Below, in pieces: positions 7,948 through 55,526 of a DNA stretch of 64,000 nt (within the stretch, counting starts at the first letter, position 1; each line of letters starts with the position of its first letter). Origin of the DNA: Limimaricola sp. (GTDB taxonomy: Bacteria > Pseudomonadota > Alphaproteobacteria > Rhodobacterales > Rhodobacteraceae); assembly GCF_016125575.1 (NCBI RefSeq), contig NZ_WGLM01000002.1, positions 372,001-436,000 on the forward strand, given 5' to 3'. The translations under genes and the position numbers were made by a program. Below the pieces are notes generated by a model, which had not been told where the DNA came from, made no database searches, and saw only the letters and a program-made list of their open reading frames with translations.

Positions 7948-9279
7948 TCAGGCGGCGGTTGCGATGCGGTTCCACAACCAGTTGGCCGTCCGCAGCAGCC
8001 GCGCATCGTCGCCCACTTTCCCGACAAGTTGCACACCCAACGGCAGGCCGTTCGGCCCGGTCATCAGCGGCAGCGACAGTGCGGGCGTTCCCAGAAGCGA
8101 CCACGTGGTGCAGAAAACGGGGCTGCCCGTCGTCTCGATCCCCGGCGCCTCGCCGGGGGTGGCCGGGGTGAGGATCGCGTCGAACTCGTCAAAGATCGCG
8201 TCCAGCGCGCGCGTCAGCACCGGGATTCTGGCCAGCGCCCGGATATGGGCGGCCGCCGTAATCTCTGACCCGCTTTCAATCATCGCGCGCAGCCGCGGGC
8301 TCAGCTGGTCCTTGCCGCGCTCGTATTCCGGGGCAAGGCTGACGGCGAGTTCCGGATCCTGGATCAGGCGATGCAGCTCTACCGCCTCGGCAAAGACCTG
8401 CGGCAGCTCGACCGTTCCCACACTCTCGCCCAACTCATCGACAAGCTCGGCGAATGCCTCTTGCGTGCTGGCCCCGGCTTGCTCCCAAAGCGGGCTGCGC
8501 ACGAAGGCCACCCGTGGTGGCAGCGGTGGCACGGATGTGGCTGTCGCCAGAAGATCGGAGCGGGCATGCAGGCGTTCGGCGGTTTCGCCGGGGTCGGCAT
8601 CCATCAGGACCTCGGCGATCAGGGCCGCGTCGCGCACCGTGGGGGCAAAGACGCCGACCTGATCAAGGGTGCGCGAGACCGACAGCATCCCGCGTCGCGA
8701 GATCAGCCCGCGCGTTGGTTTGTAGCCGACCACACCGCAGAAGGCCGCCGGCCGGATCACCGATCCGTTGGTTTGCGAGCCGACGGCAAGCGGCACCATG
8801 CCGCTGGCCACCGCCGCGGCCGACCCGCTGGACGATCCGCCCGGCGTGCGCGACGGGTCGACGGGATGATGGGTCTTGCCGGGCTGAAAGGTGGCAAGTT
8901 CCGTCGTCACCGTCTTGCCCATGATGACAGCGCCCGCTTCGCGCAAGAGCCGCACCACGGTGCTGTCTTCCAGCGTCCGCCGCCCGGCATGGAGCGGCGT
9001 GCCATCCTCGGTCGGCATGTCGCGGGTGTCGAAGATATCCTTCACCCCGACCGGCACGCCATGTAGCGGCCCGATCGGTTGGCCCTGCGCGCGCAGCTTG
9101 TCCAGCTTGCCCGCCTGCCGAAGCGCATGATCTGGGTCGATAAAGGCCCATGCCTCTATGCCCGGGTCCACTTCGGCAATCCGCTTGAGGTGGGCCTCCG
9201 TCACATCCGTGGCGGTGATCCGGCCGTCACGCAGGGCTTTCTGCGTGGCGGCCAGTGTCGTCATCTCTGTCTCGGTCAT
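7948..9279 (-). CDS. Amidase (amidase-signature family)
   Basis: This 443-residue protein hydrolyses an amide or related C-N bond. The Ser-cisSer-Lys signature is present: lysine in VGVKDIFDT, the cis-serine in TPGGSSSGSAAAVASG, and the nucleophile region GSQTNGSVIRPAAFCG, followed by GYKPTRG. The ATG at 9277-9279 overlaps the stop of the TRAP large permease (ATGA), so the two are translationally coupled; a frame extension nine codons upstream is possible but unlikely. Its place as last gene of a TRAP operon suggests that it processes an amide imported by that transporter. The substrate is unknown; Asp/Glu-tRNA amidotransferase subunit A is unlikely because GatB and GatC are absent. Confidence 0.9.
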   Translation of the reverse strand: MTETEMTTLAATQKALRDGRITATDVTEAHLKRIAEVDPGIEAWAFIDPDHALRQAGKLDKLRAQGQPIGPLHGVPVGVKDIFDTRDMPTEDGTPLHAGRRTLEDSTVVRLLREAGAVIMGKTVTTELATFQPGKTHHPVDPSRTPGGSSSGSAAAVASGMVPLAVGSQTNGSVIRPAAFCGVVGYKPTRGLISRRGMLSVSRTLDQVGVFAPTVRDAALIAEVLMDADPGETAERLHARSDLLATATSVPPLPPRVAFVRSPLWEQAGASTQEAFAELVDELGESVGTVELPQVFAEAVELHRLIQDPELAVSLAPEYERGKDQLSPRLRAMIESGSEITAAAHIRALARIPVLTRALDAIFDEFDAILTPATPGEAPGIETTGSPVFCTTWSLLGTPALSLPLMTGPNGLPLGVQLVGKVGDDARLLRTANWLWNRIATAA

Positions 9280-10625
9280 CTGGCGTAGAGCGTGTTCGGC
9301 AGCCACAAGACGATCTCTGGGTATATGTAGATCAGTGCCATGGTGATGAAGACCATGAAGACGAAGGGCAGCGAACCGGCGAAGATGTCCGACAGCTTGA
9401 CCTCCGGTGGCGAGACACCCTTGAGGTAGTAGGCCGCCATGGCCATTGGTGGCGTGTTGAACGAGGTCTGGATGTTCAACGCGACGAGGATGCCGAAGAC
9501 GATCGGGTCAACCCCGAAGAACTTCAGCAGCGGCAGGAAGATGGGCACGAAGATGATAATGATCTCGGTCCATTCCAACGGCCAGCCCAGCAGGAAGATG
9601 ATGGACTGGGTCAGGATCAGGAACCCGACCCGGTTCATGTGCAGGCCCTTGATCAGCTCTTCGACCAGCCCTTGGCCGCCCAGATAGGCAAAGACCGACG
9701 CGAAGGTCCACGAGCCCACGAAGAGGAACGTCACCATCGCCGAGGTGCGCGCGGTCAGATAGACCGCCTCTTTCAGCCGGGTGAAATCCAGTTCGCGATA
9801 GGCGGCGGCCAAGAGCAGGCTGCCGAATGCGCCAACGGCGGCGGCCTCCGTCGGGGTGGCAAAGCCAAAGAGGATCGCGCCCAGCACCGACAGGATCAGC
9901 AGCGCCAGCGGGAAGAACGAGGTCAGCAGGGCAAGGAAGATGCTGAAGTAGGATTGCGTCACCTCGCTGGCCGGCATCTTGGGCGCAAGCTTGGGGTTGA
10001 TGATCGCGCGGCCCACCACGTAGATCACGTAAAGTCCTGCCAGCAGAAAGCCGGGAAGAAAGGCGCCTGCATAAAGCTTGACCACGGATTCCCCTGCCGT
10101 GGCGGCGTAAAGGATCAGCAGGATCGACGGCGGGATCATGATACCAAGGCACCCGCCAGCGCAGACCACGCCGGCCGCCAGCTTGGTGTCGTAACCCGCC
10201 TTCAGCATTGCCGGGAAGGCCAGCAGGCCCATCAGCGTCACCACCGCGCCCACGATGCCCGTGGCCGTCGCGAAAAGTGCACAGGTCACCAGCGTCGCCA
10301 CGGCAAGCGAACCGGGCACGCGCCGCGCCGCGATCTGGATCGAGTAGAACAGCCGATCAAGGATGTTGGCTCGCTCCACCACGTATCCCATGAACAGGAA
10401 TAGCGGCACCGCCGTCAGCGTGTCGTTACTGAGAATGCTGAACGTGTTCTGCACCAACAGGTCGAACACGCGGTTGTTCAACAAGTGGCTGAACTGGTCC
10501 GGGGTGGCATAGGCAAAATAGCCAAAGCCCACTGCCATGCCCATCAGCGTGAACACCACCGGGAAACCCAGCAGCACCACGAAAATGAACAGGACGATCA
10601 TCAGAAGGCCGAGTTCGCCGCCCAT
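9276..10625 (-). CDS. TRAP transporter large permease (DctM-type)
   Basis: A 449-residue inner-membrane protein with about 12 hydrophobic segments, the ion-coupled translocation subunit of a tripartite TRAP transporter. Conserved stretches include TLTAVPLFLFMGYVVERA, ATGIVGAVVTLMG, GGCLGIMIPPSILLILY and, near the end, FNTPPMAMAAYYLKGV. These resemble the FcbT3/COG4664 ('mannitol/chloroaromatic') subgroup. Its start overlaps the stop of the small permease by one base (TAATG), and its stop overlaps the amidase start. The substrate is not predictable; the co-transcribed amidase suggests an amide-containing organic acid. Confidence 0.93.
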   Translation of the reverse strand: MGGELGLLMIVLFIFVVLLGFPVVFTLMGMAVGFGYFAYATPDQFSHLLNNRVFDLLVQNTFSILSNDTLTAVPLFLFMGYVVERANILDRLFYSIQIAARRVPGSLAVATLVTCALFATATGIVGAVVTLMGLLAFPAMLKAGYDTKLAAGVVCAGGCLGIMIPPSILLILYAATAGESVVKLYAGAFLPGFLLAGLYVIYVVGRAIINPKLAPKMPASEVTQSYFSIFLALLTSFFPLALLILSVLGAILFGFATPTEAAAVGAFGSLLLAAAYRELDFTRLKEAVYLTARTSAMVTFLFVGSWTFASVFAYLGGQGLVEELIKGLHMNRVGFLILTQSIIFLLGWPLEWTEIIIIFVPIFLPLLKFFGVDPIVFGILVALNIQTSFNTPPMAMAAYYLKGVSPPEVKLSDIFAGSLPFVFMVFITMALIYIYPEIVLWLPNTLYAR

Positions 10626-46151: not shown

Positions 46152-46183
46152 GGGGCCGTCCGCAGGGGCGGCCCCTTTTCTTT
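46152..46183 (+). terminator. Intrinsic terminator after the Deg protease
   Basis: A 10-bp stem (GGGGCCGTCC with GGGCGGCCCC, one G-T pair), GCAG loop, followed by TTTTCTTT. It lies 24 bases past the protease stop and reaches the stop of the convergent gene at 46182. Confidence 0.9.
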
Positions 46184-47648
46184 ATTCCCCGAACGACAGC
46201 GGCGCCGCGCCTGTCAGCAGGTCCAGCGTGGTGCGCGCCACGGCATCTGCATTGGCCTCGACATCGTAGCCGTCGACCATGTTGAAATAGACCTCTTCGA
46301 TGATGCCTTCATGCGCGCGGGCCATCAGTGCACCCGCGGCCTGCTCCAGCGCGGCATGGTCGATCTCCATCGCCGCGATCGCCTCGAAATCGAGGCCCGG
46401 CGCGTAGCGCACCACGCCCGGCAGCGACCCGTACCACGCCTGCCCGAACACCATCGCCGGCCGGCCCTTGCGAATGGCCTCCCATCCGGCGGTGCCGGTG
46501 ACGGTCGCGGTAAAGCGCGCGTTCGCGGCCAGTGCGGCGGTATTGGCGTAAGAGGGCATGAACTGCACCGCCGGGATCCGGGCCAGCCGGTGAAAGAACA
46601 TCGGCCCGCGCGCATAGGCGCCCTGGCGGGGGTTTTCCTTGACATAGATCTTCCAGCCTTCGGGCAGGTCGCGCGCCAGGGCCTCGATCATCAGCGCCTG
46701 GTCACGGTAGATGCCGCCCAGCGATGACGTGGACATCTCGGGCTGGTTGTGGAGCGGCACGTAGACAAAAGGCAAGGACAGGTCAATTTCCGTGCCCTCG
46801 AACTCGGCCAGGTGTTCGAAATAGGCAAGTTCGTTGACGTGGAAGAATTGCGCGAAGGGGTCGCGCCAGTCCGGGAAACTGCGGTAGATCGCGTTCATTC
46901 GCCGCACCGTGCGGGCGATGAAGGCCGGGTTCAGCAGCTTGGCGGGATCCTTGCGCGCCATGTACTGCACCAGCTGGCCCACGCCGCGAGCGGTCAGCTT
47001 TCCGGGCTTTCCGGGCTTCTGCCAGCTGTCCTTCATGTAGAAAAGGTCGGGCGCCGAACCCTTCTCGATCGGATAGGGCGGCGCGTCGCTGCCGGACAGG
47101 TCGAAATGCCCGTAATCCTCGATCCGGCTCATCGAGAAATAGCGGTTGGGAAAGATCGTCTGGCACAGCACGATGGTGCGGATGCCCAGCGATTGCGCGA
47201 CCTGGTACATCACCATGTCATAGGTCAGGTGCGGGACGTTGTAGAACAGGACGTGTGTCACGCCCTCGTCCAGCATCCGCTGCGCGAAGGCATCCGAGAG
47301 GATGTGGAAATAATCGAGGTAATCCTGCAGGTTCTGGATGTTGTGCGACCGGTAGCGATAGGCCGGGGCCGAGCGGTGCATCTGGTCCACCGCGGTTTCC
47401 AGCGAGGCGGCGAATTGCGGCGAGGCGATCAGCGCCATGTTCGCCCCGGTCTGGTGCTGGCCCTCCATGAAGGCCCCGCGCCGGCCGCGGCGCACCTCCA
47501 TCCGGCTGAGCGAGGGCGCGTGCCAGTCTGCATCACGATCGCCCATGTGAATCGCCAGCTCGACCTTGCCCTCCGACAGCGCCAGCATCCGCTCCATGAA
47601 GCGTTTGCGGTGCGTGCCACGGGCATCGCAAAGCAGGCGGATCGTCAT
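46182..47648 (-). CDS. Capsule polysaccharide export/synthesis-like protein (KpsC/KpsS-like glycosyltransferase candidate)
   Basis: A 488-residue soluble protein. The C-terminal half contains TGTAGWEAIRKGRPAMVFGQAWYGSLPGV (hallmark GTAGWEAIRKGRPAMVFG), which resembles the donor-site region of KpsC/KpsS-type Kdo transferases (pattern GS.GFEAL..GKP...FG). The middle has FVYVPLHNQPEMSTS and DLPEGWKIYVKENPRQ, also usual in that group. No membrane segments. It stands alone, not beside capsule genes, between two convergent neighbours, and its sugar and acceptor are unknown. Similar proteins are usually labelled hypothetical. It starts at 47648 in a gap of about 280 bp to the next plus-strand gene. 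Confidence 0.7.
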   Translation of the reverse strand: MTIRLLCDARGTHRKRFMERMLALSEGKVELAIHMGDRDADWHAPSLSRMEVRRGRRGAFMEGQHQTGANMALIASPQFAASLETAVDQMHRSAPAYRYRSHNIQNLQDYLDYFHILSDAFAQRMLDEGVTHVLFYNVPHLTYDMVMYQVAQSLGIRTIVLCQTIFPNRYFSMSRIEDYGHFDLSGSDAPPYPIEKGSAPDLFYMKDSWQKPGKPGKLTARGVGQLVQYMARKDPAKLLNPAFIARTVRRMNAIYRSFPDWRDPFAQFFHVNELAYFEHLAEFEGTEIDLSLPFVYVPLHNQPEMSTSSLGGIYRDQALMIEALARDLPEGWKIYVKENPRQGAYARGPMFFHRLARIPAVQFMPSYANTAALAANARFTATVTGTAGWEAIRKGRPAMVFGQAWYGSLPGVVRYAPGLDFEAIAAMEIDHAALEQAAGALMARAHEGIIEEVYFNMVDGYDVEANADAVARTTLDLLTGAAPLSFGE

Positions 47649-48250: not shown

Positions 48251-50008
48251 TCAGGCGCGAATGCCGGCAAACCGCGTCTGCCAGTCGGCGCGCTCTTCGT
48301 CGGTGATCTTGCGGAACGTCACCTCGGGCACGTTGAAGGCATGGCCGGGGGGCAGGGCCTGCAGCGCCCCGGCCACGTCGTCGGGCCAGGACCAGTCGTC
48401 GGTCTGCATCGCCGCCATCAGTCCCGCGCTGGCATCGGGGATGAAGGCCGCCGACAGCACCGCGTAAAACCGGATCAGGTTCAGCCCCAGCCGCACCTGC
48501 ATCGCGGCGACCGCCGGGTCGGTCTTGAACGTGGTCCAGGGTGCAGCCGATTGCAGGTATTCGTTGCCCGCCACCCAGATCGCGCGCAATTCTGCCGCGG
48601 CCTTGCGCACCTCGATGGCGTCCATCTGCGCCTGATAGGCCGCGACGCGGGCCGTCAGGTCGGCGATCAGTGCCTGTTCTTGGTCTCCATATGCGCCGCC
48701 CTCGGGCACGACCTCGCCGAACTTCGACCGGCAGAACTTGGTGATGCGGCTGACGAAGTTACCCAGCACATCGGCCAGGTCCTTGTTCACCGAGGCCTGG
48801 AAGTTCTCCCAGGTGAACTCGGCATCCGAGGTTTCGGGCGCGTGGCTCAGCAGCCACCAGCGCCAGTAGTCGGACGGCAGGATCGCCAGCGCCTGGTCCA
48901 TGAACACGCCGCGCCCGCGCGAGGTGGAGAACTGGCCGCCGTCATAATTGAGGTAATTGAAGGACTTGATGTAATCGACCAGCTTCCACGGCTCGCCCGA
49001 GCCGAGGATCGTGGCGGGAAAGCTCAGCGTGTGGAAGGGCACGTTGTCCTTGCCCATGAACTGGGTGTAGCGCACGTCGTCTGCACCCTTGTCGGTGCGC
49101 CACCAGCGTTCCCAGTCGGTCCCCTTGCCCGCGTCGACCCATTCCTGCGCGCAGGCGATGTATTCGATCGGCGCGTCGAACCAGACGTAGAAAACCTTGC
49201 CCTCCATCCCCGGCCAGTCGGCGTCGCCATCCTTGACAGGAATGCCCCAGTCGAGGTCGCGGGTGATGCCACGGTCCTGCAGCCCCTCGCCATCCCTCAG
49301 CCATTTCAAGGCGATGGAAGTCGTCAGGATGGGCCACGTAGTCCTTATCATTTCGACGCCGTTCCGTATTTCACCGGTCGGCTCAGTCTTAGAGAGAATC
49401 CACTGCTCTAACTGCCCGCGCATCGCGGACTGGCGCAGGTAAAGGTGCTTGGTCTCGCGCAGTTCCAGCTCGGTCGAGCCGGAGATGACCGAACGCGGGT
49501 TGATCAGGTCGGTCGGGTCCAGCTGCTTGGTGCAGTTGTCGCACTGGTCGCCGCGCGCACTTTCAAAGCCGCAATTGGGGCAGGTGCCCTCGATGTAGCG
49601 GTCGGGCAGGAAGCGGCCATCGGCCACCGAATACATCTGGTGCTCGGTCACCTCGCGGATCAGGCCGGCCTCTTTCAGCCGGTGAGCGAAATGCTGCGTC
49701 AGGCGGTGGTTCTGCGGGCTGGAGGAGCGGCCGAAATGGTCGAACGACAGCGCGAAGCCGCGCGCGATGCCGGCCTGCACGTCATGCATCTCGGCGCAAT
49801 ATTCGGCCACGGGCTTGCCCGCCTTGGCCGCCGCCAGTTCGGCGGGCGTGCCATGTTCGTCGGTGGCGCAAAGGAACAAAACTTCGTGACTGCGCGCGCG
49901 CAGGTAGCGGGCGTAAAGGTCGGCCGGCAACTGGCTGCCCACCAGGTTGCCGAGGTGCTTGATCCCGTTGATATAGGGAATTGCCGAAGTAATCAGGTGT
50001 CGCGCCAT
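48251..50008 (-). CDS. metG: Methionyl-tRNA synthetase
   Basis: A 585-residue class I aminoacyl-tRNA synthetase. N-terminal block [18 protein letters not shown] carries the HIGH-like motif; the zinc knuckle is [17 protein letters not shown] (four cysteines); the KMSKS-like loop reads [11 protein letters not shown], a common variant in this group. The tRNA anticodon-binding helices follow. No C-terminal dimerisation domain. ATG at 50008 gives the usual start RHLITSAIP; one at 50017 is also possible. A patch near 49340-49410 reads [20 protein letters not shown] where the family usually goes from SKT directly to WP; it uses codons rare for this genome (see findings). Confidence 0.95.
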
Positions 50009-50150
50009 CGCCGCCATCCGCCGTAAAACCCCGGCGCAATTAGCCCATAAGATGGGCAGGTGCCAGCCTTTGCGTGCCCCCTTGCCGTGATCGAAGGTTT
50101 CGCCACCCTCTCGGATCGGGTAAAACAGAGAAAAATGAAGGAGGAACGGC

Positions 50151-50690
50151 ATGAAACCTTCGGTTGCCCTTGGCCTGACGGCGTCGGCCCTTGCGATCGG
50201 CGCGGCGATGCCGGCCGCAGCGCAGCAGTTCTACGTCGGCGGCGGGCTTGACTACGGCCAGACCTCGCTGTCCTCGCCCTTGCCGGATGACGGCCACCTC
50301 TCCACCGGGTCGGTGCTAGCCGGCGTTACGGTGCCGATGGGGCAGCAGTTCTACCTCGGCGCGGAACTCGATACTTCGCTGGGTGCGAATTACAGCACGG
50401 ACTACGGCGACACCGTCGACAACATCACCCGCCTGCGCGCCGTCGCGGGCTACCGGTTCCCGACCTATTCGGTCTTTGCGACGCTGGGTGCGGTGCAGGT
50501 CAAGGGTGCGCTTTTCGACGGCGACAACGGCACCAGCAAAGGCACCACCTTCAGCCTTGGCGCCGATGTGCCGGTGACCGGCAATCTCGACCTGCGCTTC
50601 GAGGTGATCCGCGACCAGGTGGATCTCTTCAACGTCGGATACCGCTGGGACAACACCTCGGCTCGCGTGGCAGCCGTCTACCGTTTCTAG
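50151..50690 (+). CDS. Small outer-membrane beta-barrel protein, copy 1
   Basis: A 179-residue protein with a signal peptide ([21 protein letters not shown], cleavage after AAAQ) followed by [15 protein letters not shown]. Alternating hydrophobic strands and the final aromatic residue (AAVYRF) are typical of an outer-membrane barrel, probably eight-stranded like OmpA/OmpW-type proteins. It is divergent from metG and 14 bp upstream of an AMP-forming ligase. A second copy of this barrel-ligase pair follows at 52216. GGAGGAACGGC precedes the ATG. Its role, perhaps small-molecule passage, is inferred from the pairing only. Confidence 0.8.
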
Positions 50691-50704
50691 GCCCGACACT
50701 GGCC

Positions 50705-52117
50705 GTGTTCTCCACCGGCCTGATGGATGCGCTTGCGCGAAACGGCACAGCGCCCGCGCTGATGACCCGCGATGGTCAGATCCTGAGCCACGCACGACTG
50801 CGCCGCAACATCGCGATCCTTGCTCAGCGGCTGACCAATGCCGGCCTCGCGCCGGGGCAAACTTTCATCGTTCTGGACGAGAACCGTGACCTGCAGATCA
50901 TGGCCCGGTTCGCCGCCCTTCTTGTCGGCGCCGAAGTGGTGATGTCGCCGGGGCCGAAGGGGTTTCTGGGGACCGGGACCCAGATCGACCGGGCGCTTGT
51001 TCCTCCGGGCCGCGCGCATGGTCCCGGAACACCCATCGCCTTCGATCCGGCATGGTTCGCCGATGACGCGCCGGTTCCAGACACGGCGTGGCGCGGCGGC
51101 GGCGGGATGCATTTCTCCTCCTCCGGTTCGACAGGCGAACAAAAGTTCATGCGGCTCTCTGATGAGGGCATGGCGCACTGGATGGGCCTGATTGAGGGCC
51201 ATATCGGGCCGGATCGCGGCCCGCGTCTACTGACCTTGCCTGCCTTTTCCGCATTCGGGCTGTTTCAGTTGACCAAGGCCCTGATGGCGGGTCAAAGCGT
51301 GATGGGCACCATGGACGGGGTGGCGGAAACACTGGCGCAATCACACCGCCTTGGCGTGCGCGAAATGGTGCTGACGCCGCCGATCCTTGCCGACGTTCTG
51401 GCGGCAATTGCCGATGGAAGCCCGGCGCCCGACATCGTGCGGATCGTCTTCGGCGGAGCCATCGCCGATCCGGGTCTGTTGCGCCGGGCAAGAGAGGTCT
51501 TTCCCGCGGCCGAGTTGGTCGTGGTCTTCGGGGCCACGGAGATTGGCCTTGTCGCCTGTGGCCGCTGGCCGGACGAAGGCGCGCCGATGGGCTGGGGCGG
51601 CTGGCTGCTGCCGGGGATCGAGGCGCGGTTGGCCGATGCGGGCACTTTCGCCGATTATCCGGCCGAGGCGGGCAGGCTGGGCTTTCGCGTTCCGCCCGTC
51701 GCGCGGGCGCTGGGCTATCTTGGCCGCGGGCCGGCCTTCGACCCCGATGGCTGGTTCGACACCGGCGACATTGCCACGATCGCCCCCGACGGCGCGCTGG
51801 TGATCCTCGGGCGCGAGGATTTCCTGATCAACCTCGGCGGCGTAAAGACCACGCCCGAGGCGATCGAGGCGCTGTGCCTTGGCCAGCCGGGCGTGGCGCA
51901 GGTTGCGGCTACTCGCGTTCCCGGAAAGGCGCATGACCGGTTGGGCCTGATGGTGGCGCCGGGGCGGGGCTTTGACGCGAGCAGGTTGCGCGCCGCCGTC
52001 GCCGCGCGGCTGGATATTGCCCTGACCATCGAGGTGCGCGAGGTGGAGGCCCTGCCGCGCCTGCCCTCCGGCAAGATCGACCGCGCCGCCGTCGCCCGCG
52101 CCTTCGCCCACGTCTAG
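50705..52117 (+). CDS. Compact AMP-forming ligase (ANL superfamily), copy 1
   Basis: A 470-residue ANL-type ligase, shorter than the usual 510-550. Motifs: HFSSSGSTGEQKFM (nucleotide loop, about 136-149), FGATEIG (A5, about 275), WFDTGDIATI (A7), GREDFLINLGGVKTTPEAIE (A8) and LPRLPSGKIDRAAV with the C-terminal lysine. It is therefore probably active in adenylating a carboxylic acid; CoA, a carrier or an amine could be the acceptor. The GTG at 50705 starts it, 14 bp after the barrel gene. No carrier protein, thioesterase or dehydrogenase is adjacent. Confidence 0.85.
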   Translation: MFSTGLMDALARNGTAPALMTRDGQILSHARLRRNIAILAQRLTNAGLAPGQTFIVLDENRDLQIMARFAALLVGAEVVMSPGPKGFLGTGTQIDRALVPPGRAHGPGTPIAFDPAWFADDAPVPDTAWRGGGGMHFSSSGSTGEQKFMRLSDEGMAHWMGLIEGHIGPDRGPRLLTLPAFSAFGLFQLTKALMAGQSVMGTMDGVAETLAQSHRLGVREMVLTPPILADVLAAIADGSPAPDIVRIVFGGAIADPGLLRRAREVFPAAELVVVFGATEIGLVACGRWPDEGAPMGWGGWLLPGIEARLADAGTFADYPAEAGRLGFRVPPVARALGYLGRGPAFDPDGWFDTGDIATIAPDGALVILGREDFLINLGGVKTTPEAIEALCLGQPGVAQVAATRVPGKAHDRLGLMVAPGRGFDASRLRAAVAARLDIALTIEVREVEALPRLPSGKIDRAAVARAFAHV

Positions 52118-52215
52118 CGGCGGGTCGTGCATTCGTGCCGATGCGGGGCTTGTTTGTTCTTTCGCTGCGGCCGCAACTGGACTATTCTTGGTCGCGTCAA
52201 GTCTGGAGAATGCGC

Positions 52216-52767
52216 ATGAAACCGTCCGTCCTGCTCGGCCTCACGGCCTCGACCCTTGCGATGGGCGCGGCACTGCCGGCCACCGCGCAACAGTTCTACG
52301 TCGGCGGCGGTTTCGACTACGGCAGCACGACCCTGACCGACGATATCGCAAACACCTACGATAGTCACCTCGGGGCACCCACGCTTCTCGCCGGTGTCAT
52401 GATGCCGGTGTCGCCGCAATTCTATCTCGGGGCCGAGATCGACACCTCGCTAGGGGCTAACCTCGACTCCTCGTCCTTCTCCGGCGGCTCGGTCGACAAC
52501 GTCAGCCGCCTGCGCGCCATCGCGGGCTACCAGTTGCCGAACTTCTCGGTTTTCGCCAGCCTGGGCGCGGTTCAGTACAACGGCGCGCTCGACAGCGGCG
52601 CGACGGGGACCAGCAACGGCACCACCTACGGCCTTGGTGCCCAGGTGCCGGTGACCAGCAACATGGACGTGCGCTTTGAGGTGATCCACGATCAGGTGAA
52701 CACCTTCGACTACGGCTACAAGTGGGACAACACCGCGTTGCGCGCCGCCGCCGTGTTCCGGTTCTGA
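52216..52767 (+). CDS. Small outer-membrane beta-barrel protein, copy 2
   Basis: A 183-residue homologue of the barrel at 50151: the signal peptide (KPSVLLGLTASTLAMGAALPATAQ) and the mature start QFYVGGGFDYGSTTL are nearly superimposable, and so is the end LRAAAVFRF. A loop early in the barrel (TDDIANTYDSHL) differs most, as expected for an exposed loop. I chose the ATG at 52216 (TGGAGAATGCGC before it); upstream in-frame codons are not family-like. It follows the first ligase by about 100 bp and precedes the second by 31 bp. Confidence 0.8.
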   Translation: MKPSVLLGLTASTLAMGAALPATAQQFYVGGGFDYGSTTLTDDIANTYDSHLGAPTLLAGVMMPVSPQFYLGAEIDTSLGANLDSSSFSGGSVDNVSRLRAIAGYQLPNFSVFASLGAVQYNGALDSGATGTSNGTTYGLGAQVPVTSNMDVRFEVIHDQVNTFDYGYKWDNTALRAAAVFRF

Positions 52768-52798
52768 CCTGACTAATCGTCTTTTCTCGATTGACCTG

Positions 52799-54187
52799 AT
52801 GCAGGCGCTGGCTCGTCATGCCAACGCGCCCGCCCTGTTGACGCGCGACGGCCAGACCGTCAGTCATTCCCGCCTGCGCCGCAATATCGGCATTCTGGCC
52901 CAACGGATGGCCGCGGTGGGCCTAGCCCCCGGCGACAGGATGATCGCACAGGTCGATAACCGGGATTTGCAGATCATGGCACGATTTGCGGCCCTTCTGC
53001 TGGGCGCCGAGGTGGTGATGGCGCCCGACGCAAGCGGATTTCTCGCGTCTGGAGGGACGGTTGACTGGTCGCTGGTGTTTCCCGGTCAGTCGCCGGGGCC
53101 GGGCCGGCCCATCACCTTTTCGCCGAACTGGTTTGCCGACGATGCACCGGCCCCGCCCGAGGATTGGCCCGGCGGCGGGGGCATGATCTTTGGCTCCTCA
53201 GGCTCGACGGGCCTGCAGAAGTTCATGCTCGCCTCCGATAGCGTGCTTGCCAGTTGGCAACGGCGCGCGCGGACCGCGATTGGGCCCGATTTCGGCAACC
53301 GGCTGCTCGGCATTCCGGCGTTCAGCGTCTTCGGTCTGATCTACTTGTCCAAGGCTCTGATCGAGGGGCATGCCGCGATGGGCACGATGGGCGACACCGT
53401 GGCGACGATGGTCGCTGCGCGCAATTTCGACGTGCGTGAACTTGTCGGCACGCCGCTGATCCTGAACGACGTGACCGAAGCGGCAGAGGCGGGCCACCCG
53501 ATGCCCGCCTTCGCCCGCTTCCTGTTCGGCGGCGCCATCGCGGATAACCAGACGCTGGCCCGCACCGCAGCGGCCTTCGCGGGTGCGCATCTCGATGTCG
53601 TGGTCGGGTCAAGTGAATACAGCATCTCGACGCTCGGCCGCGTGCAGGAGCGGGCGATTCCGCTGGGCTGGGTCGGCTGGCCGGTCCCGGACACCGAGCT
53701 GCGGCTGGACTCGGCGGGTGCCTATACTGGCTATCCGGCGGCGGCGGGGCGGCTGTCAATCCGGGTGCCGGAAGACTCGCGTGTCACCGGCTACCTCAAC
53801 GGCGCGCCCGCCTTCGATCCCGAGGGCTGGTTCGACACTGGCGACATCGCCACGATCGCCTCCGATGGTTCGTTGGTGATCCACGGGCGCGAGGATTTCC
53901 TGATCAACCTCGGCGGCATCAAGACCACGCCGGAATCGATCGAGGCGCTTTGCCTCGCTCATCCCGGCGTCGCGCAGGTTGCCGCCACGCGCATTCCGGG
54001 GCAGGCGCATGACCGGCTGGGCCTGCTGGTGGCCGTCGGGCCGGGGTTCGATGCGGACCGCCTGCGCGCCGCCCTGGCCGCCCGCCTGGACCTTGCACTG
54101 GCCATCGAGGTCCGCGAGGTGGAGGCCCTGCCGCGCCTGCCCACCGGCAAGATCGACCGTGCTGCCGTGGCCCGCCTCTTCGCCTAG
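52799..54187 (+). CDS. Compact AMP-forming ligase (ANL superfamily), copy 2
   Basis: A 462-residue homologue of the ligase at 50705 over its whole length (RLRRNI, NRDLQIMARFAALL, AFDPEGWFDTGDIATIA, GREDFLINLGGIKTTPESIEALC, LPRLPTGKIDRAAVARLF). The nucleotide loop reads GSSGSTGLQKFM. The A5 motif is degenerate: VVGSSEYSIS, where copy 1 has FGATEIG and active enzymes have YGxTE. The glutamate is kept but the residues before it have changed. The start ATG lacks a strong ribosome binding site; similarity to copy 1 extends about six codons upstream, so a non-ATG start is possible. Its stop shares the tetranucleotide CTAG with the convergent MFS gene. Confidence 0.83.
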   Translation: MQALARHANAPALLTRDGQTVSHSRLRRNIGILAQRMAAVGLAPGDRMIAQVDNRDLQIMARFAALLLGAEVVMAPDASGFLASGGTVDWSLVFPGQSPGPGRPITFSPNWFADDAPAPPEDWPGGGGMIFGSSGSTGLQKFMLASDSVLASWQRRARTAIGPDFGNRLLGIPAFSVFGLIYLSKALIEGHAAMGTMGDTVATMVAARNFDVRELVGTPLILNDVTEAAEAGHPMPAFARFLFGGAIADNQTLARTAAAFAGAHLDVVVGSSEYSISTLGRVQERAIPLGWVGWPVPDTELRLDSAGAYTGYPAAAGRLSIRVPEDSRVTGYLNGAPAFDPEGWFDTGDIATIASDGSLVIHGREDFLINLGGIKTTPESIEALCLAHPGVAQVAATRIPGQAHDRLGLLVAVGPGFDADRLRAALAARLDLALAIEVREVEALPRLPTGKIDRAAVARLFA

Positions 54188-55419
54188 CTGTCGCCCGCCG
54201 CGCCGCGCCCGCGCCGCAGCAGCCGCCCGACGATGAAACTGGTGCGCGGGACATAGACATAGCCCATCCGCTCGGCCGGGCTGGGCCGTGCCCGCATCCG
54301 CGCAAAGCCGAAGATCACAAGGCCCAGATGCGCCGCCGCCAGCACCACGAAAAGCGCCGGCGGCCCGAAATGCTGGATCAGCACCGAGGTGCCCCAAGGT
54401 GCGGCGATGGCCCCCAGGGCGTAAAAGAACATCAGCGCCGCGGACAGTTCCACCCGCGCGTCATCCTCGGCAAAGTCATGCGCGTGGGCTGCCGAGATCG
54501 AGTAGATCGGGTAGGTCGACAGCCCCACCAGCCCCGCCGCGACAAGGATCGCCAGCGGGCCCATCTGCGCCGCGCCGATGGTGGCCAGCGACGTGCCGAT
54601 CGAGGCCACCGACAGCCCGATCAGCACCCAGCGCCGGTCAAACTTGTCGGCCAGCCAGCCCACCGGGTATTGCGCCAGCCCGCCGCCCGCCACGTAGATG
54701 GCAAGGAACGTGCCGATCTGGTCGGGCCGCAGCCCCACGGCCTGTCCGTAGATTGGCCCCACCATGCGGAAACTGGCCGACGAGAGCCCGGCCACCATCA
54801 CGCCCAAGGTGGCCAGCGGCGAGATCCGCCAGCTCAGCGCCGGGCGCAGGCGCGGGGCCAGTGCGGTGGCAGGCTGCTCGGCCCGGCTGATCGCCAGCGG
54901 CAGCAGCGAGGCGCAGCAGACGATCGTCAGCAGGTTGTAGGCGATATAGGTGGGCACGCTCGCCAGCGTGCCGATCATGAACTGCGCCCCCAACGAGGCG
55001 ACAATGTCGACCACGCGGTAGCTGCCCATCGCGCGGCCCCGCGTCTGGTTGGTGACCTTGGCTTGCAGCCATGCCTCGATCACCGTGTAGCAGCCCGCCA
55101 CGCACAGGCCCGAGGCCAGCCGAAAGAGCGCCCACCATGCCGGGTTCGTCACCAGCACATGAGCCGCCAACCCGATGGCGCCCAGCGCGGTGAAGGCGGC
55201 ATAGGTGCGCGCGTGGCCCACGCTGCCCATCAGCCGCGGCGCCCACCAGCAGCCGATGAAGAAGCCCAGGAAATGGGCCGAGCCCAGCACCCCCACCTGC
55301 GCCGTGCCAAAGCCCGCCGCCAGCCCCGTAAGCGCGTCCAGCGGGCCGACCCCGCCCGAGGACAGCTGCAACAGCATCACCGAGGCGAAGAGCGAGGCAA
55401 AGGACAACATCAGGCGCAT
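54184..55419 (-). CDS. MFS transporter
   Basis: A 411-residue membrane protein with about 12 predicted segments. Block VGVLGSAHFLGFFIGCWWAPRLMGSVGHARTYAAF (hallmark FLGFFIGCWWAPR) and VIEAWLQAKVTNQTRGRAMGSYRVVD match the YcaD-like/sugar-efflux-like MFS group. GLAQYPVGWLADKFDRRWVLIGLS is the second-half loop motif. I chose the ATG at 55419; the longer frame lacks a membrane-like beginning. Cargo is unknown. It is convergent with the second AMP ligase, sharing its stop codon bases, and divergent from the aldo/keto reductase gene. Confidence 0.88.
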   Translation of the reverse strand: MRLMLSFASLFASVMLLQLSSGGVGPLDALTGLAAGFGTAQVGVLGSAHFLGFFIGCWWAPRLMGSVGHARTYAAFTALGAIGLAAHVLVTNPAWWALFRLASGLCVAGCYTVIEAWLQAKVTNQTRGRAMGSYRVVDIVASLGAQFMIGTLASVPTYIAYNLLTIVCCASLLPLAISRAEQPATALAPRLRPALSWRISPLATLGVMVAGLSSASFRMVGPIYGQAVGLRPDQIGTFLAIYVAGGGLAQYPVGWLADKFDRRWVLIGLSVASIGTSLATIGAAQMGPLAILVAAGLVGLSTYPIYSISAAHAHDFAEDDARVELSAALMFFYALGAIAAPWGTSVLIQHFGPPALFVVLAAAHLGLVIFGFARMRARPSPAERMGYVYVPRTSFIVGRLLRRGRGAAGDS

Positions 55420-55526
55420 GGTGCGGCCACTCTGGGCCGGGGGACAGCCGGGCGCAATCGGCTTTGCACGCTTGTCATCGCCGCCGGTCACGCTAGGACA
55501 GGCACGACAATTTGAAAGGACCCCTC

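Follow-up and report, generated by a model that had tools for sequence, protein, structure and literature searches.

Do a small outer-membrane barrel and an AMP-forming ligase encoded side by side belong together, and if so, what might they do? The question is raised by a stretch of 64,000 nucleotides from Limimaricola sp. (contig NZ_WGLM01000002.1; this whole stretch is called the window), in which four plus-strand open reading frames (ORFs) at 50151–54187 follow one another as barrel–ligase–barrel–ligase, with the coordinates and lengths that the original prediction had given them. Judging from sequence comparison, the pairing is real and not due to chance: the pair recurs in distant genomes, and its ligases fall into a distinct clade. 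We suggest, as a tentative reading that falls somewhat short of probable, that it is a minimal module, present in the window in two diverged copies, which imports and activates a carboxylic acid that is polar and perhaps aromatic. The genes and motifs concerned are:

50151..50690, plus strand: barrel 1, 179 aa with a signal peptide, eight-stranded outer-membrane beta-barrel (PF13505)
50705..52117, plus strand: ligase 1, 470 aa, GTG start, AMP-forming (ANL) ligase (PF00501)
51116..51148, plus strand: P-loop of ligase 1 (A3 motif, SSSGSTGEQKF)
52073..52075, plus strand: A10 lysine codon of ligase 1 (LPSGKIDR)
52216..52767, plus strand: barrel 2, 183 aa with a signal peptide (PF13505)
52799..54187, plus strand: ligase 2, 462 aa, AMP-forming ligase (PF00501)
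54149..54151, plus strand: A10 lysine codon of ligase 2 (LPTGKIDR)

Duplication and recurrence of the barrel–ligase pair

The two halves of the locus are copies of each other, as had been predicted. A gapless alignment of the two ligases over 462 residues gives 63 % identity, and the two barrels are 63 % identical counting gaps, or 65 % over aligned residues. Synonymous and nonsynonymous divergence (dS/dN, NG86) are 0.70/0.26 for the barrels and 0.94/0.30 for the ligases, which suggests that all four genes are under purifying selection and that both halves of the duplication are similar in age. Taken together, these identities and divergence values support a single duplication of the two-gene unit, as a unit, with all four genes apparently retained under selection. 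Both barrels lie above the Pfam cut-off for PF13505, and the ligases score 85.6 and 59.3 bits against PF00501 (cut-off 29.9), with the P-loop Lys, A5 Glu, A7 Asp and A10 Lys all present in both; none of the best 25 NCBIfam matches of the ligases reached its cut-off. Barrel 2 also has a sub-threshold OEP match in Pfam, and gave no match to E 1 among the sequences of solved structures. The gaps are 14 bases between barrel 1 and ligase 1, 98 bases between ligase 1 and barrel 2 and 31 bases between barrel 2 and ligase 2. Ligase 1 may instead begin at a later in-frame ATG (50723), which corresponds to the start of ligase 2. A promoter and terminator scan gave no signal exceeding shuffled sequence.

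The minimal pair, which we call form A, recurs outside the window. A ligase 1 search of the family set (198 genera) yielded one further close relative, in genome G175 (L015/L047), and a scan of the genome collection yielded another in contig WGNJ01000007.1 (L044) of a metagenome-assembled genome; in each a barrel lies directly upstream of the ligase, with gaps of 6 and 15 bases, respectively; both genomes are those of distant alphaproteobacteria (ligases 36–38 % identical). Within the core set formed by the window's two pairs and these two, the core ligase immediately follows the core barrel in 4/4, and barrel and ligase identities between pairs are roughly parallel (0.65/0.63, 0.38/0.38, 0.39/0.36 and 0.41/0.30). 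Core ligases score 668–777 bits and the next 237, core barrels 238–300 bits and the next 72, against profiles that were built from these same core rows. A class-wide ligase profile search (385 genomes, best four candidates each) brought no additional core ligase, and no barrel flanks the best-scoring ligase that it found beyond the family (G312, L050). Both genome sets are samples; the best eight candidates per genome were scored in the ligase 1 search and in two further searches, and up to 30 loci per search, not all matches, were examined.

Chance adjacency of two common gene types is, on this evidence, extremely improbable. The source genome has eight PF13505 barrels above the cut-off in five loci, of which two besides the window adjoin ligases. 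Given that 1.4 % of genome positions are no farther than 1.5 kb from the nearest of 15 ligases (those found with ligase 1 as query, a minimum count), the presence of a ligase within 1.5 kb at three of the five loci has P 2.6e-5, and at two of four, with the window excluded, P 1.1e-3; a ligase count three times as high would raise these to 6.7e-4 and 9.7e-3. The wider counts speak in part for chance. Among 93 distinct related barrels a ligase lies within 1.5 kb in 12 and within 3 kb in 13; 12 of these 13 belong to form A, to the forms B and C described below or to the G012 C15 locus, whose barrel is convergent with its ligase, and one (G128) was judged accidental. The other 80 have no ligase in the flanks examined, which were 1.5 kb for most loci; this includes 28 for which about 2 to 9 kb per side was examined. 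The seeds were partly picked for ligase linkage, so that these counts are not a random sample. Rare co-occurrence, which the original prediction had named, together with incongruent trees, as the outcome that would tell against the pairing, is true of related barrels generally and untrue of the close lineage, where all four are paired. Chance is contradicted by the conserved pairing across distant genomes, by the single ligase clade and by the values of P 2.6e-5 to 6.7e-4 in the source genome. The G128 barrel (L126/L162), convergent with its ligase, was rejected as a case of the system because that ligase is PimA-like (TIGR03205, below cut-off) and falls, outside the 28 ligases from barrel loci, among ordinary ligases in the tree.

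The copies have also diverged where the original prediction placed their differences, in a barrel loop and in ligase active-site motifs: the barrels differ most at residues 31–75 (47–63 % identity in 30-residue windows), the ligases are 54 % identical before residue 340 and 84 % beyond it, and the A5 motif reads FGATE in ligase 1 and VGSSE in ligase 2. The C-terminal domains of the ligases (51725–52117 and 53789–54187) are far more alike than the N-domains, fourfold sites included. The proportion of synonymous differences (pS) falls from 0.61 in the N-domain to 0.35 in the C-domain, and identical fourfold sites number 51/120 and 47/69 (Fisher p 8.5e-4); in comparisons with relatives the C-domain is favoured less strongly (0.48 versus 0.34 for L044, 0.38 versus 0.35 for G175). 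This suggests gene conversion between the C-terminal domains, and it looks as if the C-terminal domain was homogenised while the substrate-binding domain drifted. The pattern fits, without proving, different substrates for the two copies, which we regard as plausible. Gene conversion between the barrels, hinted at by windowed pS, was rejected, since there is no significant difference along their length (Fisher p 0.38).

Wider barrel loci and a distinct ligase clade

Two larger arrangements contain related barrels and ligases. Form B comprises three ligases, a small barrel and a TctC-like/TctA importer of the tripartite tricarboxylate transporter (TTT) type, and occurs in three genera. In the source genome (C3; L048:3728–12085) it runs as ligase, barrel and a divergent ligase pair, the second of which leads into TctC-like and TctA genes with a weak TctB end; the order is the same in G016 (L096:3992–12257), and G197 (L098:6325–18000) has the same parts with an ABC transporter in between. 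TctA is above the Pfam cut-off in all three loci, and the ligases leading into TctC-like/TctA are the nearest relatives of the window ligases. Form C, at C5 of the source genome (L095), has four tandem ligases followed by the barrel and an NAD epimerase, with a sulfotransferase and a PobA-like hydroxylase nearby; the set is also found in G163 (L160) and G012 (L158), with the hydroxylase and sulfotransferase placed differently and, in G012, 2.4 kb between barrel and first ligase, and a partial set lies amid transposases in G184 (L161). The four ligase paralogues keep one order across three genera. The barrel profile that found G012, G163 and G184 was built without those genomes; the TctC, TctA, PobA, epimerase and sulfotransferase profiles were partly built from the loci that they mark, and the genes were separately checked by Pfam/NCBIfam. 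The plasmid collection contained no match to the window ligase (E 1e-20) and none to the form B barrel of the source genome (E 1e-6), and the G016 form B ligase as query found just two distant ligases at E 1e-25. Two further loci were noted in passing: three tandem PF13505 barrels at G000:C5:907427–909559 (L097), with no ligase within the 10 kb stretch, and a ligase of G184 that is split into three ORFs (L163:5925–7694, G184:C1).

In a tree of 63 ligases, one branch (support 99/97, present in 98 % of bootstrap trees) has all 28 barrel-locus ligases on the same side. Ligase ORFs below 380 aa, barrel ORFs below 120 aa and duplicates had been dropped, and the 63-row tree also left out the long rows L042, L046, L050 and L051, none of them from a barrel locus; an earlier tree of 67 rows gave the same split with support of 81 in the Shimodaira–Hasegawa-like approximate likelihood ratio test (SH-aLRT). 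On these sequence grounds a distinct ligase clade is shared by loci with a carboxylate importer and loci with a PobA-like hydroxylase. Within the clade, form A groups with the TTT-linked and divergent form B ligases and that of the G012 C15 locus (98/87), whereas form C goes with those form B ligases that are paired with a barrel (100/100); the form A ligases are not a clean clade, the TTT-linked ligases being nested inside (92/89) and the G175 row being long.

Motifs set the clade apart as well. According to PMC8388817, the A4 position holds an aromatic residue that belongs to the acyl pocket, and the A10 lysine is highly conserved. By alignment, A4 is aromatic in none of the 28 barrel-locus ligases and in 38/39 controls (H 31, F 6, Y 1), and it is Ser in both window ligases, unlike the aryl-CoA ligase subfamily, for which an aromatic A4 is expected. 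A8 Asn occurs in 27/28 versus 6/39 others; the P-loop Lys is present in 27/28, and A5 Glu and A7 Asp in 28/28. Two core ligases are unusual: in the L044 ligase (7983–9383) Arg replaces the P-loop Lys, and in the G175 ligase (L047:7452–8834) the A7 and A8 motifs are altered (TADCG; SCGTVT). Of the sampled form C tandem ligases (L095:8819–14718, equivalent to G000:C5:773.8–779.7 kb; L160, L158 and L161), 13/14 are without the A10 lysine, which is present in 39/39 controls; they have a DGxPxR-like sequence in place of GKxDR and retain the P-loop Lys, A5 Glu and A7 Asp.

The barrel tree, made with a quick method and containing many weak forks, unites the form A barrels (SH-aLRT 94), whose sisters (99) are two barrels without a ligase, and puts the form B, form C and G012 C15 barrels in another group of 18 (98), 10 of which are not near a ligase. 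On these placements the history of the barrels matches that of the ligases within form A, within form C and between form C and the form B ligases that are paired with a barrel; the co-divergence that was to be looked for in the two trees is thus present in part only.

The genes beside the module in the window are:

48251..50152, minus strand: metG (methionine–tRNA ligase), a flank, not part of the module, divergent from barrel 1
54184..55491, minus strand: MFS transporter, a flank, not part of the module, convergent, with a 4-base overlap with the ligase 2 stop

The first ATG of the metG ORF gives a 2-base overlap with barrel 1, and the true start is probably later. Farther out, a 488-aa protein at 46182–47648 (minus strand) matches Capsule_synth (PF05159), with no NCBIfam match at E 0.1.

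Import and activation weighed against other readings

We regard import and activation of a polar acid as the best reading because the ligase clade is associated with barrels and also, in the branch nearest to the window ligases, with an importer of carboxylates. At the outer membrane the small eight-stranded barrel would admit or capture the carboxylic acid, which would be polar and might be aromatic; the acid would cross the inner membrane through a carrier presumably encoded elsewhere; and the cytoplasmic ANL ligase would convert it to the adenylate and then to a CoA ester, or another thioester, whereby the activated acid would be trapped inside the cell. TTT systems import terephthalate and isophthalate (PMC13040137), and the PobA-like gene also points towards the import of polar or aromatic acids. 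Uptake with trapping, the mechanism originally proposed, gains support since the nearest ligase relatives lead into a TctC-like/TctA importer; its version for hydrophobic acids, modelled on FadL and FadD, does not.

That version, a vectorial acylation of FadL/FadD or AlkL/AlkK type, would have the same division of labour between barrel and ligase, and the acyl-CoA synthetase AlkK and the eight-stranded outer-membrane importer AlkL do co-occur in the alk set (PMC5376172), but we consider it highly improbable. The window barrels have no FadL family match in Pfam and no OmpW family match to E 1, and they are predicted to have eight strands and not to form a large barrel. An AlphaFold2 model of the barrel (predicted local distance difference test, pLDDT, 80) has eight strands, and the predicted inward-facing residues E72, R94, R96, R149, E151 and R172 are invariant in all four core barrels; a charged interior lined by Arg and Glu is thereby predicted, which, as far as predicted strands can show, argues against a hydrophobic lumen. 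Moreover, AlkL is cited as inactive for fatty acids (PMC6812396), and the genes linked to the wider barrel loci indicate polar or aromatic carboxylates.

A serious rival, which we nonetheless hold to be somewhat unlikely, is biosynthesis with surface display or release: the ligases would activate acids made by the cell for an aryl- or acyl-conjugate, the barrel would anchor, release or sense the product, and the window pair would be a reduced form of a small biosynthetic cluster. In agreement with this, the form C set has a biosynthetic look: in three genera its barrel and four ligases, the latter in conserved order, lie together with genes for a sulfotransferase, a PobA-like hydroxylase and an NAD epimerase, and no ring-cleavage or beta-oxidation family was found among the form C neighbours checked by Pfam. 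The ligase model, which matches ANL enzymes at Z about 30–32, has among its best matches PchD, EntE and CahJ, enzymes that activate aryl acids, though these are tied with many others; the model is weak (pLDDT 68, with the P-loop and A5 regions below 50), which ruled out pocket prediction. Considering, on the other side, that the nearest relatives of the window ligases are linked to an importer, that the window pair has no directly flanking tailoring enzyme or carrier protein and that the outward loops of the barrel are short (5–8 residues between predicted strands), we prefer import.

The barrel may alternatively be a sensor or structural protein merely co-expressed with a ligase that works independently, as its OmpA/OmpX/NspA-like fold, its charged interior and the ligase-less members in two groups of related barrels would allow. 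We judge this improbable, if less so than vectorial acylation, given that tight pairing across several arrangements would then demand another reason. The outer-membrane lipid enzymes PagL and PagP have conserved catalytic Ser/His; the invariant columns of the four core barrels contain no Ser or His, which separates them from such enzymes.

Several points weigh against import and activation, in addition to the strength of the biosynthetic rival. Form A is rare (2/198 family genera), and the window pair has, the MFS gene apart, no directly flanking transporter, hydroxylase or catabolic gene, its neighbours being metG and that MFS gene, with TctC, TctA and TctB all absent from these flanks. At the other two form A loci the neighbouring genes are not the same: L044 has an ABC transporter, pst-like from our reading of its sequence, with two permeases, and G175 an SBF-family transporter. 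In the form B loci TctC scores 40.4, 26.1 and 21.9 bits (cut-off 27), so that one of three passes, and TctB passes in none; the PobA-like proteins lie below the equivalog cut-off (TIGR02360, 479–517 bits, E 1e-143 to 1e-155, cut-off 538.7) and above the subfamily one (PRK08243, 470–507 bits, cut-off 351). In the barrel tree the form A barrels stand apart from those of forms B and C; both groups include or adjoin barrels without a ligase, and the two groups are not sisters, which argues against a single origin of the pair, or for replacement of the barrel. The structural matches of the barrel model to NspA, OmpA and OmpW are tied at Z about 18 (OmpW: Z 18.0, root-mean-square deviation 2.3, 149 aligned), and reflect the fold only, distinguishing no function. 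Eight-stranded barrels with charged interiors are, finally, often closed structural proteins.

A broader proposal is possible, and we hold it a little less firmly than import and activation: the unnamed ligase clade and the small barrels may constitute one alphaproteobacterial system in three layouts (the pair; three ligases with a TTT-type importer; four ligases with a PobA-like hydroxylase, sulfotransferase and epimerase), with the form C ligases passing on or assembling activated acids rather than adenylating them. The latter is suggested because nearly all of those sampled are without the A10 lysine yet have the ATP-site motifs. We know of no precedent for an outer-membrane-linked, multi-ligase pathway.

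Relation to known systems and meaning

Like the window pair, FadL–FadD of E. coli combines an outer-membrane protein with an AMP-forming ligase that traps the imported acid; its substrate, however, is hydrophobic, FadL comes from another family and forms a larger barrel, and the fadL and fadD genes are not adjacent. AlkL/AlkK, from the alk genes of Pseudomonas putida GPo1, likewise places an eight-stranded barrel and an acyl-CoA synthetase in one gene set (PMC5376172). AlkL belongs to the OmpW family, for which a hydrophobic channel has been described, and was itself modelled with such a channel and a lateral opening (PMC5376172), whereas the window barrels belong to PF13505 and have a predicted charged interior; AlkK is of a different ligase clade. 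With the TTT (TctC–TctA–TctB) importers of aromatic acids the link is through the relatives of the window ligases that lead into TctC-like and TctA genes, the window pair itself having no TTT gene beside it. The window ligases share the fold, the core motifs and an INxGGxK-type A8 with EntE, PchD, CahJ and aryl-CoA ligases, and differ from the aryl-acid activating ANL enzymes in being 22–25 % identical to them in structural alignments and in having no aromatic A4. The window barrels share eight strands, a match at Z about 14–18 and a polar interior with OmpA, OmpX and NspA, but have no OmpA-like C-terminal domain, have short outward loops and are encoded beside ligases.

Literature searches, in the parts of papers that they returned, found no description of a barrel–ligase module or of the ligase clade. 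The parts are of known kinds, and their conserved combination, with this clade of ligases, may be an apparently undescribed way to take up and activate organic acids. Many PF13505 barrels and AMP-forming ligases are without an assigned role, and the pairing gives both a testable one, in which each ligase predicts what its barrel handles; since members of the clade are encoded near a carboxylate importer in some loci and near a PobA-like hydroxylase in others, the substrates can be guessed and the guesses tested. If the reading is true, the pair would provide a compact route for polar acids from the outer membrane to the cytoplasm, and would help in understanding how these bacteria use aromatic or plant-derived acids and in the engineering of uptake.

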